Below are positions 661 to 16,561 of a stretch of 64,000 nt of DNA, in pieces (within the stretch, counting starts at the first letter, position 1; each line of letters begins with the position of its first letter). Origin of the DNA: Desulfosediminicola flagellatus. Its GTDB lineage: Bacteria > Desulfobacterota > Desulfobulbia > Desulfobulbales > Desulfocapsaceae. The notes under the pieces are model-generated. The model was not told the DNA's origin and ran no database searches. It saw nothing but the letters and a program-made list of their open reading frames with translations. The DNA lies in assembly GCF_005116655.2 (NCBI RefSeq), contig NZ_CP050698.1, positions 6,218,501 to 6,282,500 on the forward strand, written 5' to 3'. A program made the position numbers and the translations under genes.

Positions 661-1371
661 TTATAAGAGTAACTTCTTTTTTATGGTTTTCAGGTAACGT
701 CTGCTCACGGGCACCATTTTTGCCGATAACGTTCGGATTTTTGCAAGGCCCGCTTCCATCAGGATGATTTCATCGATGGAATCGAGATTGATAAGATACT
801 GTTTATGGCACCTGAGTAGTGGAGTACGTTCTTCCAGGACTTTGAGAGTGACCTCGGTGAAGTATTCTCCGTGTGAGGTTGCTATATGCACACCTGCAGG
901 TTCAGTAAAGATAAACTCAACATCAGCAAGACTAATGAGTTTAATGCGATTGCCAAGCAAGCAGGGGATGCGCTCAATCGCCTCAGTTTCATAGGTGGGA
1001 TGGCGGTTTTCAACGATGGTTCGCTGGAGTTTGGTAATGGTTTTTGCAAGCCTGGCTTTATCGACCGGTTTGAGTAAATAGTCGAGGGTTTTTTCTTCAA
1101 AGGCTTTGAGCGAATAGTGATCATAGGCGGTGACAAAGACCACATGGGGCATGATTCCTGGATTGATCATGTTGAGAAGTTCAAAACCGTTGATCACTGG
1201 CATCTCAATGTCGAGAAAGAGTACTTCCGGCTTAAGGCGATTAATGAGTTTTAAAGCATCAATAGCGTTACTACAGGTGCCTAATATCTCGACTTTCCCG
1301 GTTTCCGTAAGCAGTGCTTCCATCTCGTCGCGTGCGTGAAGTTCATCATCGATAATGAGTGTTCTAATCAT
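661..1371 (-). CDS. LytTR-family response regulator (BtsR/YehT-like)
   Basis: This is a 236-residue response regulator. Residues 1-120 form a receiver domain with acidic pocket D8-D9, phospho-acceptor D54 in LFLDIEMPVINGF, and the conserved KP of LLKPVDKARL. Residues about 135-236 form a LytTR DNA-binding domain (IKLISLADVEFIFTE, RCHKQYLINLDSIDEI, VPVSRRYLKTIKK). The start is the ATG at 1371, which overlaps the stop of the upstream kinase gene by four bases (ATGA), so the two are translationally coupled. LytTR regulators bind pairs of short direct repeats about two helical turns apart. Three repeats matching the BtsR consensus lie at 6300-6347 upstream of the TRAP operon. Family assignment is firm; the target is inferred. 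Confidence 0.92.
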   Translation of the reverse strand: MIRTLIIDDELHARDEMEALLTETGKVEILGTCSNAIDALKLINRLKPEVLFLDIEMPVINGFELLNMINPGIMPHVVFVTAYDHYSLKAFEEKTLDYLLKPVDKARLAKTITKLQRTIVENRHPTYETEAIERIPCLLGNRIKLISLADVEFIFTEPAGVHIATSHGEYFTEVTLKVLEERTPLLRCHKQYLINLDSIDEIILMEAGLAKIRTLSAKMVPVSRRYLKTIKKKLLL

Positions 1372-3065
1372 TGCTTGCTGCACCCCTTTTCCGGCACGGA
1401 GATGGTGATGACTGTTTTTTCCTGCGGAATGCAGGATATTTGAATACCGTGTTCTTCTCCGCAAAGATTTTTAATACGCTTTTCAACGATGTCCATGCCC
1501 AACCCTTTTCTGTCTCGTTTCACAAAGTTTCCGGCATTATCTTCAATGATAATACACATGCGATCTGACTTCTGACGGGCGGATATGCGGACTATACCCT
1601 GGCCGAGCATCTGCGAGATACCATGCTTGATAGCATTTTCAACAATCGGTTGAAGGGTGAAAACCGGTAGCTTTCGCGAGAGCATAGTTTTGTCGATATC
1701 CATTTCTAGCTGCAACTTATCTTCAAACCGTGCCTTCTCTATGACAAGGTATGAGTTGACATGATTAAGCTCTTCTTCGAGAGTGGCGAGATCGCCGGTT
1801 CGTTTAAGATTTTTCCTGAAAAAGTTTGAGAGGTGCATAAGCAGGTCACGCGCACGATCACCGTCTTTTCTGATAATGGCACTGATAGTATTGAGCGCAT
1901 TAAAGAGAAAATGCGGGTTGACCTGAGCCTGGGCAAGTTTGAGTTCTGATCGGGTCAGTAAATCCTTTTGTTCAACATAACGTGAGTAGAGAATCTGGTC
2001 GGAGAGGATTTTTGTGATTCCTTCACCAAGTGTTCTATTGGTAACCAGGAAGAGTTTATTTTTCGGTTCAAAGAGGTTTATGGTCCCAACAAGTTCGTTA
2101 TCAACCCGAAGCGGAACGCAGAGAACAGAACCGAGTGGACAGTTATCGGAGAGATTACATCGCCACTTCTTTTTACCGCCATCTGCATAGATGATCCGGT
2201 TTTCACGAATAGCTTTTTTGGTTTGGGATGAACTGATTGCCTGACCTATCTGGTGGTGGTCGTGGCCATCTCCAACGAATGCTAAAACTTTTTCCCTGTC
2301 AGTGATGGCAACAGCGCCAACGCCTGTCTCCTCGCGGATAACTGAGGCGACCTCCGAGGCTGTGTCCATGTTCAGCCCCCGACCGAGAATCGAGACGGTT
2401 TTCTCAGCCATTTTAAGAGCTTTTGCAGAAAAGGTGACACTTAACTCATCGTACATTTTTCGCTGGTCCCGGATGATGGAAACAAAAATTGCAGCACCTG
2501 TTGCGTTGGCGAGCATCATCGGCAGGGCGATGATTCGAACTAGGGAATAGGCGCTTTCAAATGGTTTCGCAAATGTCAGAATGATCAACATTTGGCTTAT
2601 TTCGGCAACAAGTGTCGTGAGAAATGCTACCCAGGGGCTGAGAAGCTTATGCTGCTGATAGCTGCGTATAAGATAGATGTGCACCAGACCGCCAATTAGT
2701 CCTTCTGCTGTTGTGGAAAGACCGCAGGAGAAGGCCGTGAATCCTCCAAGGGAAAAGCGGTGGAGGCCAGCCGTAAATCCGACAGCTCCGCCGAGAAGGG
2801 GCCCACCTATAATTCCGGCAAGAACTGCACCTATTGCCCGGGTGTTAGCAATGGCATCGTTTATTGGCAGACCGAAATAGGTGCCAAGTATCGAGAATGT
2901 AGAAAAGACAGCGTACAGGAGGAGTAATTGCTGCCAGTGGAGTGTGTGGATATGGAACGATTTAAAGAAAGGGGATTTGGTAAAGAGATAGGCGATAACC
3001 AGAAATACTGACATCTGTTGCAACAGAGCAAAAATATTGTTGATAGAAAATGTCAGCAGATCCAT
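1368..3065 (-). CDS. LytS/BtsS-type sensor histidine kinase (5TM-LYT, GAF, HisKA_5)
   Basis: This 565-residue membrane kinase has residues 1-190 as the 5TM-5TMR_LYT sensor, with several helices and the signature INDAIANTRAIGAV plus the Gly-rich GPLLGGAVGFTAGLHRFS. Residues about 220-360 form a GAF-like domain containing CNLSDNCPLGSVLCVPL. The phospho-acceptor is H385 in QAQVNPHFLFNALNTI, followed by an HATPase domain with VENAIKHG and GLGMDIVEKRI. This architecture is that of LytS and of E. coli BtsS (YehU), a high-affinity pyruvate sensor. The gene lies 144 bp downstream of dctM on the same strand, and its last bases overlap the response regulator start. Ligand identity is inferred from BtsS homology and from the 2-oxo-acid-type transporter next to it. 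Confidence 0.93.
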   Translation of the reverse strand: MDLLTFSINNIFALLQQMSVFLVIAYLFTKSPFFKSFHIHTLHWQQLLLLYAVFSTFSILGTYFGLPINDAIANTRAIGAVLAGIIGGPLLGGAVGFTAGLHRFSLGGFTAFSCGLSTTAEGLIGGLVHIYLIRSYQQHKLLSPWVAFLTTLVAEISQMLIILTFAKPFESAYSLVRIIALPMMLANATGAAIFVSIIRDQRKMYDELSVTFSAKALKMAEKTVSILGRGLNMDTASEVASVIREETGVGAVAITDREKVLAFVGDGHDHHQIGQAISSSQTKKAIRENRIIYADGGKKKWRCNLSDNCPLGSVLCVPLRVDNELVGTINLFEPKNKLFLVTNRTLGEGITKILSDQILYSRYVEQKDLLTRSELKLAQAQVNPHFLFNALNTISAIIRKDGDRARDLLMHLSNFFRKNLKRTGDLATLEEELNHVNSYLVIEKARFEDKLQLEMDIDKTMLSRKLPVFTLQPIVENAIKHGISQMLGQGIVRISARQKSDRMCIIIEDNAGNFVKRDRKGLGMDIVEKRIKNLCGEEHGIQISCIPQEKTVITISVPEKGCSKQ

Positions 3066-3208: not shown

Positions 3209-4537
3209 TTACAGGCCATATTGACCAGGAAAAATGATAATTGAGGCCAGAACCAATATCTGGATAACAATAAATGGGAGAACTCCACGGTATATATCGA
3301 CTGTCTGCACTCCAGGTGGACACACCCCTTTGAGGTAAAAGAGTGAGAAACCAAACGGCGGCGTAAGAAAAGAGGTTTGCAGGTTCATGGCAACAAGGAT
3401 CGCAAACCACATCGGGTTTATCCCGATGGCTTCTGAAATTGGTAGCAGAATGGGCACTACAATGTACGATATTTCTATAAAATCAATAAAGAAGCCGAGG
3501 AGCATGATGGCTAACATCGAAAGAATAAGAAATCCCCATTTTTCACCCGGGAGGTTCAGCATGAACTCTTCCACAAGGAGATCAGCGCCTGTGTAGACAA
3601 AGACCATGGAAAATGCGGTTGCACCGATCAGGATGGCAAAAACCATTGCTGTAATCTTTACCGTCTCAAGCGAAGAATCAATGACGATATCCAAACTGAG
3701 TTTTCTGTACATTGCGGCGAGAATCATTGCTCCCAGAGCACCAACTGAAGCGGATTCTGTTGGTGTCGCAATTCCGGCAAAGATCGAACCGAGAACCATG
3801 ATAATCAGGGCAAGCGGCGGAATGATGGCCAACAGAGCTCGTTTGATTGAGCCTTTTTGATCTTCTTCGGCGATGAGAATCTCTGGTGCTACCGTCTTGT
3901 CAAAGAGAGCGATCAGAACGATATAGAGGATATAACAGCCTACCAGAACAAGCCCGGGAACCAGTGCTGCCTTAAAGAGATCACCTACAGGTAATTGGAA
4001 TACGTCACCAAGAATGATCAGCACTATAGATGGCGGAATGATCTGTCCTAATGTTCCTGCGGCACAGATGGTTCCCGTGGCAAGTTTCTTGGAATAGCCA
4101 TATTTCAGCATCACAGGTAGAGCTATCACTCCCATGGCTACAACTGAGGCACCGACAACACCGGTTGATGCGGCAAGTAGTGTACCAACAAGCACAGTGC
4201 TGATTGCCAGGCCGCCACGTACTTTACCAAAGAGGATACCCATTGATTCAAGTAATCGCTCAGCCAGTTCTGATCGCTGCAGAATGATACCCATCAGGAT
4301 AAAGAGGGGCACAGCCATCAGGATGGTGTTGGTCATTATTGAGTAGATCCGGAACGGCATCATGGAAAACATCGAGAAAAATTCTTCCGCGACCATTATG
4401 AGGCCAGCATCGGGTTGCAATTCGATAAAGGCTGCAATTGCACCGAAAAACAGTGCCACCGCCCCGAAGGTGAAGGCCACGGGGTAACCTACGACCAGGA
4501 GAACAAGGGCCGCAAAAAACATTATAATACCGGTCAT
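3209..4537 (-). CDS. dctM: TRAP transporter large permease
   Basis: A 442-residue polytopic protein of the DctM family, the sodium-coupled transport subunit of a tripartite ATP-independent periplasmic transporter. Family motifs visible are AVPLFILMGIILQRS, LLAASTGVVGASVVAMG, CAAGTLGQIIPPSI and the C-terminal MNLQTSFLTPPFGFSLFYLK. About 12 membrane helices are evident from hydrophobicity. The start is well fixed by AGGAGAGG a few bases upstream, and the ATG overlaps the dctQ stop by one base. It is the last gene of dctP-dctQ-dctM. The substrate is set by the DctP subunit, here of the TakP (2-oxo acid) type. Confidence 0.96.
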   Translation of the reverse strand: MTGIIMFFAALVLLVVGYPVAFTFGAVALFFGAIAAFIELQPDAGLIMVAEEFFSMFSMMPFRIYSIMTNTILMAVPLFILMGIILQRSELAERLLESMGILFGKVRGGLAISTVLVGTLLAASTGVVGASVVAMGVIALPVMLKYGYSKKLATGTICAAGTLGQIIPPSIVLIILGDVFQLPVGDLFKAALVPGLVLVGCYILYIVLIALFDKTVAPEILIAEEDQKGSIKRALLAIIPPLALIIMVLGSIFAGIATPTESASVGALGAMILAAMYRKLSLDIVIDSSLETVKITAMVFAILIGATAFSMVFVYTGADLLVEEFMLNLPGEKWGFLILSMLAIMLLGFFIDFIEISYIVVPILLPISEAIGINPMWFAILVAMNLQTSFLTPPFGFSLFYLKGVCPPGVQTVDIYRGVLPFIVIQILVLASIIIFPGQYGL

Positions 4538-5037
4538 TATCCTCTCCTGAAGTTATTGATATTCTGCAGGACGTAGCCTGTCGCGCTCAAAAGTAAAAAT
4601 ACAAATGATACAGGGATCATACTTTTGATAATCCACCGATAAGGCAGACCGCCGGGGTCTTCAGAGATTTCATTCATTGAATATGCGTCATAAACAAAAT
4701 CCACGGAACCAAAAAGGATCAGAAGGGAGAGAGGCATTAAAAAGAGTAGAGTACCGAAGATATTAATCAGGGCTTTGGTTTTCGGTCGCATACGGTCATA
4801 GAGAAAATCGACGCGTACGTGCGCTTCATGTTTAAGGGCATATCCGACTCCGAAGAGGATAACGATAGTAAATAGATGCCACTCAAGTTCCTGCATGCCG
4901 ACAGAACTCGCGCGGAAGAGGTATCGCATCATAACGTCAAAGGCGACATTAAGTACCATCAGCAGTAGGGCGATTGCCAGCACGATGCCCATGGCATCAA
5001 CAATTCTGCCGATGAATTTTTCAATTTTTTCCAACAT
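4537..5037 (-). CDS. dctQ: TRAP transporter small permease
   Basis: A 166-residue DctQ-family membrane subunit with four predicted helices (residues about 15-35, 45-65, 90-110 and 135-155). The family signature HLFTIVILFGVGYALKHEAH precedes VRVDFLYDRMRPK. It forms the membrane complex with DctM and links to the binding protein. It is placed between dctP, after a 99-bp gap holding a stem-loop, and dctM, with which it overlaps by one base. Confidence 0.95.
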   Translation of the reverse strand: MLEKIEKFIGRIVDAMGIVLAIALLLMVLNVAFDVMMRYLFRASSVGMQELEWHLFTIVILFGVGYALKHEAHVRVDFLYDRMRPKTKALINIFGTLLFLMPLSLLILFGSVDFVYDAYSMNEISEDPGGLPYRWIIKSMIPVSFVFLLLSATGYVLQNINNFRRG

Positions 5038-5136: not shown

Positions 5137-6207
5137 TTATTCCAATTCCTGAGAAGTCTTGATGTAGTTATACTCAGAGATGGTGGTCCAGTTTCTGGCC
5201 TTGGCCATATAGGCACGCTGAGAGGCAAGGATCTCTTTGAAGCTCTCATCTTTTGCTGCATACTCTTCATAGAGTTCGTCAGCGGCTTTTTTCATTGCTT
5301 TAAGAACTTCTGGTGGGAAGGTTTTAACCTTGATATTCGGGAATTCGGTTTTCATCTGTTCCCAGGCTTCAGCACTTTCTGCGAAGTTGTCTGTAGTCAT
5401 ATCTGTGCTTGCTGCTTTCATAGCAGTGATCAGCATTGCCTGATATTCTTTAGGCAACTTGTCGTAGGCGCGCTTGTTAATGAGAAATTGCAGCTCGGTG
5501 GCAGGCTCATGCCAACCGGTGTAGTAAAAGGGCGCAATTTTATGAAAACCCATTTTGATGTCCATACCAGGTCCAACCCACTCGAGAGCATCGATGGTTC
5601 CGCGGTCAAGAGAGGTGTACAATTCGCCAGCAGGGATATTGGTAACGTTAACGCCAAGTTTTGCAAATACTTCTCCTGCGAGACCGGGAATACGCATTTT
5701 CAGGCCCTGCAAGTCGTCAAGAGAGTTGATCTCTTTCTGAAACCATCCACCCATCTGGACACCGGAGTTGCCGCCGGGAAAGCTCATTACCTCGAATTTA
5801 TCATAGGTTTTCTGCATCAATTCCATACCGCCGCCATGGTAAAACCAGGCGTTCTGCTCATCGACATTCATGCCGAATGGAACTGTGCAGAAAAATACGG
5901 TGGACATGTCCTTGCCTTTCCAGTAATAGGATGCGCTGTGAGCCATCTGGTACTGACCGCCTTTGGTCATGTCGAGAACACCGAGTGCAGCTTTATGTTT
6001 CTCTGCACCTTCAATGCGAATGGTGAAGTCTCCACCACTCATTTCCTCTACCATCTTGGCGAGGTACATTGGAGCATTGGCAAACGGGGTAAGGGTGGAA
6101 GACCAGCTCATTGCCAGTTTCCAGCGAACTTTTTTGGCCGCAAAGGCCGGTGTGGCGAGAAATGCGAGAACGATGAATACAGATGAAATGCGTAAAACCA
6201 ATTTCAT
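5137..6207 (-). CDS. dctP: TRAP transporter solute-binding protein, TakP-like
   Basis: A 356-residue periplasmic binding protein. The start ATG at 6207 is fixed by AAGGAGG six bases upstream and by a signal peptide ending ATPAFAAKK. The family pattern is that of TakP-type 2-oxo-acid binders: WKLAMSWSSTLTPF, HSASYYWKGKD, VPFGMNVDEQNAWFY, FPGGNSGVQMGGWF, KMRIPGLAGEVFAKLG and TIDALEWVGPGMD. In TakP the arginine of the MRIPG segment and a tryptophan/glutamate region bind the 2-oxo carboxylate together with sodium; that is family knowledge, while the residues are seen here. Likely ligands are pyruvate or other 2-oxo acids. The upstream region carries three BtsR-like operator repeats and a TATAAC -10 box. 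Confidence 0.94.
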   Translation of the reverse strand: MKLVLRISSVFIVLAFLATPAFAAKKVRWKLAMSWSSTLTPFANAPMYLAKMVEEMSGGDFTIRIEGAEKHKAALGVLDMTKGGQYQMAHSASYYWKGKDMSTVFFCTVPFGMNVDEQNAWFYHGGGMELMQKTYDKFEVMSFPGGNSGVQMGGWFQKEINSLDDLQGLKMRIPGLAGEVFAKLGVNVTNIPAGELYTSLDRGTIDALEWVGPGMDIKMGFHKIAPFYYTGWHEPATELQFLINKRAYDKLPKEYQAMLITAMKAASTDMTTDNFAESAEAWEQMKTEFPNIKVKTFPPEVLKAMKKAADELYEEYAAKDESFKEILASQRAYMAKARNWTTISEYNYIKTSQELE

Positions 6208-6255
6208 TGCAACCTCCTTTGGATGGATTGAAAATGTTCCCCCCACGGGAACAGC

Positions 6256-6261
6256 GTTATA
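6256..6261 (-). promoter_or_regulatory. probable -10 box of the dctPQM promoter
   Basis: Read on the minus strand the hexamer is TATAAC, within an extended TAGTATAAC. It would give a 5' UTR of about 40 nt before the dctP ATG at 6207. The sequence 17 bp further upstream (TTTCGC) is a poor -35, as expected for a promoter that needs an activator bound at the repeats just upstream. Confidence 0.5.
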
Positions 6262-6299
6262 CTACCCAAAGCGGACTGGCGAAAAAACACTGTCGCCGT

Positions 6300-6347
6300 T
6301 AAGTGGTCGAATGTCAGGCTAAGCGGTTACTGTTGAAGTTAAGTGGT
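6300..6347 (-). promoter_or_regulatory. three BtsR/LytTR-type direct-repeat operators
   Basis: On the minus strand the octamers ACCACTTA (6347-6340), ACCGCTTA (6327-6320) and ACCACTTA (6307-6300) recur at an exact 20-bp period with 12-bp spacers. All three match the published BtsR (YehT) consensus ACC(G/A)CT(C/T)A, which occurs as a pair with a 13-bp spacer in E. coli. The proximal repeat lies about 40-50 bp upstream of the TATAAC box, a good place for an activator. A LytTR regulator is encoded downstream in the same block. Confidence 0.75.
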
Positions 6348-15991: not shown

Positions 15992-16561
15992 ATGGATAAT
16001 ATACTACCTCAAAACACCTTGAATCCGGTTCGACAGAAAAACGATGTCCTGCCGGATTCGTCCTCTCTCATTCTTCTGCAATCTGCCGGAATTTTGGAGC
16101 TTGTCTGTCACTATTATACCCTGTTGCTGGTGCCTTCAGTATTTGAAGAGATAACAGAAGCTGAAAAACCGGGGGCCAATTTTTTCGTATATCTGCAAAA
16201 GAAGAATCTGCTTCATCTGCTTACGGGTTCTGATATTTCCAATACCCCCATGCAAAGAGCAGAACTTGGTAAAATGGGGAAGGGCGAGAGTGAACTCCTT
16301 GCAAATTTTCTTTCAGGGGCTGGCTCGTTTGTTGTGGTTGATGACCTGCGGGCGGCTAAGTTTTGCGTGAGGCATGAAATACCGTTTATCAATGCATTAT
16401 TGATACCACGGATTCTTATGTTTGCAGATGTACTTTCAGGTGAGAGTGCAGATGAATACTTTAGTCTGATTCAACAGCGCGGCCGTTATTCTGTTTCTAT
16501 TCTGAAAAGAGCTGAGTCGTTTCAGCATGAAGATTTAGAACGATTTTTTCCAGACAGCTAA
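15992..16561 (+). CDS. PIN-like domain protein
   Basis: A 189-residue protein resembling the PIN nuclease fold. An early Asp with serines (LPDSSSLILLQSAGILELV), a VPSVFEEI segment, the MGKGESELL motif with its acidic residue, and FVVVDDLRAAKFCVRHEIPF correspond to the usual acidic positions of PIN domains. Many such proteins are RNase toxins, but no small antitoxin gene is adjacent. It lies 23 bp after the nitroreductase gene and is probably co-transcribed. Its role is unknown; it could be a solitary PIN protein of the DUF3368 type. Confidence 0.7.
   Translation: MDNILPQNTLNPVRQKNDVLPDSSSLILLQSAGILELVCHYYTLLLVPSVFEEITEAEKPGANFFVYLQKKNLLHLLTGSDISNTPMQRAELGKMGKGESELLANFLSGAGSFVVVDDLRAAKFCVRHEIPFINALLIPRILMFADVLSGESADEYFSLIQQRGRYSVSILKRAESFQHEDLERFFPDS

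Follow-up and report, generated by a model that had tools for sequence, protein, structure and literature searches.

Three candidate BtsR-type half-sites precede a 2-oxo-acid TRAP transporter operon that encodes a BtsS/BtsR-type system in Desulfosediminicola flagellatus

Introduction

In a 64-kb stretch of the D. flagellatus genome (the whole of which we refer to as the window), a TRAP transporter operon is preceded by three short, regularly spaced repeats that match ACC(G/A)CT(C/T)A (ACCRCTYA), a consensus derived from E. coli and not fitted to the D. flagellatus sequence. This locus raises the question of which regulator, if any, recognizes these repeats, and whether a pyruvate-sensing system of the BtsS/BtsR type could control an importer of this kind.

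Results

The repeats are located on the minus strand (6347-6300), in the form ACCACTTA-N12-ACCGCTTA-N12-ACCACTTA, 92 bp upstream of dctP, and we confirmed the observation of the initial annotation that the three copies recur at exact 20-bp steps, approximately 39 to 86 bp upstream of the sequence TATAAC (6261-6256). The array is intergenic, with dctP (start 6207) on one side and a divergent pta-ackA pair on the other, and tandem half-sites thus precede the target gene, as in known BtsS/BtsR systems. All features of the locus are listed in Table 1.

Table 1. Features of the D. flagellatus locus, in window coordinates
Feature	Position	Strand	Basis
BtsR-type LytTR response regulator	661..1371	-	NCBIfam match and identity to E. 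coli BtsR
BtsS-type histidine kinase (5TMR-LYT, GAF, His_kinase)	1368..3065	-	domains and identity to E. coli BtsS
dctM, TRAP large membrane protein	3209..4537	-	annotation by sequence
dctQ, TRAP small membrane protein	4537..5037	-	annotation by sequence
dctP, TRAP solute-binding protein, 2-oxo-acid clade	5137..6207	-	sequence comparison
Hairpin TGTTCCC-GTGGG-GGGAACA, presumed 5′ leader	6235..6253	-	sequence
Probable -10 element TAGTAT, 35 nt after the proximal half-site	6259..6264	-	alignment of targets; prediction
Proximal BtsR-type half-site ACCACTTA (candidate)	6300..6307	-	sequence match and conservation
Middle BtsR-type half-site ACCGCTTA (candidate)	6320..6327	-	sequence match and conservation
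Distal BtsR-type half-site ACCACTTA (candidate)	6340..6347	-	sequence match and conservation

It is the tandem arrangement, and not the frequency of single sites, that stands out. Single ACCRCTYA copies are at background frequency in the window (10, vs. 6.1 +/- 2.4 in shuffles), as would be expected if the repeats were functionless and due to chance. Pattern searches of the whole 6.75 Mb genome for exact ACCRCTYA pairs separated by 12 or 13 bp returned two overlapping matches, both in the array, with 0 matches to the reversed-pattern control. When triples were sought with 12 bp in each spacer and no more than 3 mismatches in 24 positions, the array was again the sole match in the genome; a triple with spacers of 13 and then 12 bp had no match anywhere in the genome. 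Simple arithmetic from the single-site rate in the window predicts approximately 1e-6 exact triples per genome by chance. Pairs with one mismatch occur twice elsewhere in the genome, equal to the reversed-pattern control (2), and we therefore claim no wider regulon. A class-wide scan for exact pairs matched 11 of 258 genomes, approximately the reversed-pattern control level once D. flagellatus and its sister genome are excluded, and was uninformative; in most relatives the operator has degenerated too far to be caught by an exact pattern.

The operon has the gene order dctP, dctQ, dctM, histidine kinase, response regulator, with all five genes on the minus strand. The response regulator scores 321 bits against the NCBIfam BtsR equivalog (PRK11697; cut-off 246) and shares 46% identity with E. 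coli BtsR, supporting the initial view of this adjacent LytTR protein as BtsR-type and identifying it as a BtsR orthologue. Its DNA-binding domain contains RCHKQYLIN and VPVSRRYLK, where E. coli BtsR has RCHRQYLVN and VPVSRRYLK. Over 557 aligned columns, the kinase is 52% identical to E. coli BtsS and, as a LytS-type kinase, retains Arg72, Arg99, Cys110, Ser113, and His382 (E. coli numbering), the first four of which are reported to bind pyruvate and the last to be the phospho-acceptor (PMC10653868). Nearly all the kinases that we examined, family-wide, have the pyruvate-binding residues, which therefore support pyruvate as the ligand without singling it out. In Anaeromyxobacter oryzae, Gly and Ala replace Cys110 and Ser113 in a BtsS-like kinase (locus L046, 8343-9998), for which a changed ligand is conceivable from these substitutions; in the same locus, in GC-rich DNA, an L-lactate permease gene 6 kb from the kinase has a weak array upstream (6 mismatches; 16167-16322).

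Our comparison of DctP with solved structures identified 5cm6 and 4pet as the nearest, followed by 7ug8, a ketoacid-binding protein, and 2hzk, which we take to be TakP (its record says SmoM). The ligand of 5cm6 and 4pet is presumably pyruvate, and this was not used as evidence. DctP matches 2hzk and 7ug8 over nearly its full length, with other DctP types far weaker, as in TakP-type 2-oxo-acid TRAP transporters; on this sequence comparison, made without a DctP tree, a DctP of the ketoacid clade is encoded together with DctQ and DctM, in line with the earlier description of the operon as a 2-oxo-acid TRAP system. A structure prediction for DctP from a two-row alignment (pLDDT 34) was too poor for use. 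The products of pta-ackA, which adjoins the operon in divergent orientation, act after pyruvate in metabolism. The predicted TRAP substrate is a 2-oxo acid, probably pyruvate. It is possible, although we consider it unlikely, that the array is a BtsR operator but that another 2-oxo acid or lactate is sensed and imported, since the named relatives of DctP bind ketoacids in general and the sensor residues are conserved family-wide; all four pyruvate-binding residues are intact in this kinase, however, and the operon lies next to genes acting downstream of pyruvate, both of which favor pyruvate.

Conservation within the family was examined using the genomes of 93 members, of which 8, D. flagellatus included, contain a close BtsR orthologue. 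In 7 of these 8, BtsR and dctPQM are linked, with the gene order of D. flagellatus (split over two contigs in G050), and in G028 the order is kinase-regulator-dctPQM. The BtsSR-linked loci have three half-sites before dctP at steps of 20-21 bp, kept while the spacers diverged, and whole-locus scans score the place before dctP best, except in locus L038, where the array is degenerate (6 mismatches) and this place is tied with other sites. No comparable signal was found in relatives at steps other than 20-21 bp, the low mismatch values at the 19-20 setting being the same 20-bp steps. As a control set, we took the 250 bp upstream of each of thirty family dctP orthologues. The array is present before all 7 that are BtsSR-linked (0-6 mismatches in 24 positions, starting 140-151 bp before the gene), and before none of the 23 in genomes without a BtsR orthologue (best values of 8-11 mismatches, at scattered positions), a split with a naive chance of 1 in 2,035,800, a figure that overstates its significance because the genes are related. 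Absence of the repeats in front of orthologous dctP genes had been named at the outset as an outcome that would count against the proposal; the repeats are present with BtsSR linkage and absent without BtsR, i.e., target sites were gained or lost together with BtsSR in these relatives. Genes without an array include same-genus dctP genes (G036 and G037) with products 79-83% identical to D. flagellatus DctP, and complete TRAP operons in G069 and G054. The second dctP of D. flagellatus (65% identical) also has no array upstream. With an array that is unique in its genome, that co-occurs with BtsSR, and whose half-sites are conserved while spacers diverge, at 20-21 bp steps only, we regard chance repeats as an exceedingly improbable explanation.

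These genomes also bear on which protein would bind the array. D. flagellatus encodes a second LytTR protein (L001), and it, or an unrelated regulator, could be proposed as the one that occupies the repeats. In G036 and G037, a relative of this second protein is kept, whereas both a BtsR orthologue and the array before dctP are missing, so that the array tracks BtsSR and not the second LytTR protein, and the motif is that of the E. coli BtsR target; we therefore consider binding by another regulator very unlikely, and BtsR remains the predicted binding protein. In these two genomes, dctP is located beside ackA or pta-ackA with no dctQM or BtsSR nearby (L168, 8788-9852, in G037; L169, 8159-9232, in G036), and judged by this gene neighborhood it is an orphan binding protein.

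Alignment of 24 targets on the proximal half-site showed a hexamer whose second base is A and whose sixth is T at an offset of 34 or 35 in 20 of them, compared to 0-5 of 24 at each other offset. The initial annotation had named TATAAC as the -10 box, and this sequence is present as described; as the -10 element, conservation across relatives makes TAGTAT (6264-6259), which overlaps it by three bases and lies at the distance from the array common to most targets, more likely. No sigma-70-like hexamer pair was found at the dctP promoter region, which has no good -35, in keeping with a promoter that depends on an activator. If the -10 hexamer spans -12 to -7, the half-sites would be centred near -52, -72, and -92. 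The direction of regulation is not readable from sequence, and BtsR might repress the operon, or only autoregulate, with TRAP expression driven by something else. This we find improbable, as the -10 and the presumed -35 region are left free by the half-sites, all of which are further upstream, no good -35 is present, and E. coli BtsR activates btsT (PMC10653868); activation is thus the direction that we predict. The hairpin in the presumed leader could be an mRNA stabiliser or a site for another regulator. Several relatives (L034, L036, L038, and L166) have hairpins at the same place in the leader with quite different sequence, the one in L038 having 13 perfect pairs.

Three copies and a 12-bp spacer had been put forward as what sets this locus apart from the E. 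coli pairs, and this was not borne out. The btsT fragment used for SPR, containing the E. coli BtsR site (PMC4847170), was located upstream of btsT in MG1655, where the operator reads GCCGCTCA-N12-ACCGCTTA-N13-ACCACTCA, i.e., three half-sites, with one 12-bp spacer. We then examined 30 promoters of TRAP or CstA genes whose best pair has no more than 3 mismatches. Measured from that pair, a third half-site (up to 2 mismatches) was found at 20 or 21 bp in 24 of them, compared to 0-3 promoters for each of the other offsets. In Rahnella, all three copies are perfect and follow one another at 20-bp steps. The triplet and the 12-bp spacer are common among BtsR-target promoters and are therefore traits of the family, and we rejected the idea that they are peculiar to the TRAP case. 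An earlier mention of the third btsT half-site was not found in the open-licence literature. In Photobacterium rosenbergii (L050, 11073-11155), two extra perfect half-sites (ACCACTTA and ACCGCTCA) immediately precede a perfect triple, with a spacing that departs slightly from its register.

Beyond the family, both elsewhere in the phylum and in the Deferribacterota, TRAP-linked BtsSR was also found: BtsSR lies beside dctPQM with an array before dctP in G514, from another family (2 mismatches), and in Denitrovibrio (Deferribacterota; L052; 3 mismatches). In G627, a weaker array (5 mismatches) accompanies a distant TRAP system. Many other BtsSR loci that we examined adjoin CstA/BtsT-family genes. 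The BtsT/CstA genes of BtsSR systems, btsT of E. coli among them, are likewise preceded by the array, with a -10-like hexamer equally far from it. On a kinase tree, three changes of the TRAP label are required (2-3 across bootstrap trees), with L052 forming a long branch of unsure placement, and the importer type was thus switched more than once. The earlier suggestion that the LytTR rule was re-used for a TRAP system holds in so far as the transporter was exchanged under a conserved sensor and operator, with the direction of this exchange not resolved by the kinase tree. We favor, with moderate confidence, a general BtsR operator of three half-sites phase-locked to the -10, in a cassette that has been joined more than once, across phyla, to unrelated importers (the CstA family, and at least two kinds of TRAP system).

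Arrays were also seen near other genes. A short, possibly misassembled contig of a SAR324 MAG has an array with 1 mismatch in 24 positions before genes for a second BtsS-like kinase, which is fragmentary, and for pyruvate:ferredoxin oxidoreductase (L057, 3407-3456). In G379, besides the array before CstA, a second strong array (L162, 7188, minus strand; 1 mismatch) is found approximately 0.5 kb upstream of the gene for a KefB-like cation antiporter, which may be set beside the targeting of both cstA and kdp by a LytTR regulator in Desulfovibrio vulgaris (PMC3333781).

Discussion

The sequence evidence supports the initial proposal that the repeats are BtsR-type operators, in that they have the motif of the E. 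coli BtsR target and co-occur with BtsSR. Our reading, to which we give a probability of about 0.85, is that pyruvate-activated BtsSR switches on the 2-oxo-acid TRAP operon, including its own genes. The BtsS/BtsR-type system, whose genes end the operon, would have the three repeats as its operator. Pyruvate outside the cell, or a closely similar 2-oxo acid, would bind the membrane domain of the kinase, which would then phosphorylate the LytTR regulator. The regulator would occupy the three half-sites, which are approximately two helical turns apart and hence on one face of the DNA, and aid RNA polymerase at a promoter with a -10 at fixed distance and no good -35. The dctPQM importer would thereby be switched on and, as part of a presumed single five-gene transcript, the kinase and regulator genes would be co-induced, giving positive feedback.

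The closest comparison is E. coli BtsS/BtsR-btsT, with an orthologous kinase and regulator, the pyruvate-binding residues kept, and three half-sites that share the consensus, recur every 20-21 bp, and are followed at an equal distance by a -10-like hexamer. There, btsSR and btsT are far apart on the chromosome and the target is the CstA-family symporter BtsT, whereas the adjacent target in D. flagellatus is dctPQM, bearing out the earlier description of a completely different transporter type. A CstA-family target, absent from this locus, is a trait of the known regulon and not of the two-component family. Compared as a LytTR member, the D. vulgaris regulator DVU0596 likewise belongs to a LytTR two-component system encoded beside an importer gene that it targets, in a sulfate reducer, but its targets are cstA copies and kdp (PMC3333781), while the D. 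flagellatus system adjoins a TRAP operon. We found no paper on LytTR or BtsS control of TRAP transporters in the open-licence literature, which mostly leaves out subscription papers, and the novelty of the BtsSR-TRAP link is claimed only against this searchable literature.

With these findings, the BtsR operator, hitherto pictured as a pair, is corrected to three half-sites, and the range of a well-studied pyruvate-sensing system is extended to a TRAP importer, found both in anaerobic relatives of sulfate reducers and in Deferribacterota. They also predict a regulator and an inducer for a class of importers whose control is mostly unknown. D. flagellatus shares with E. coli the sensor, regulator, and DNA target sites of a pyruvate-sensing switch, which here most likely controls a completely different kind of importer.
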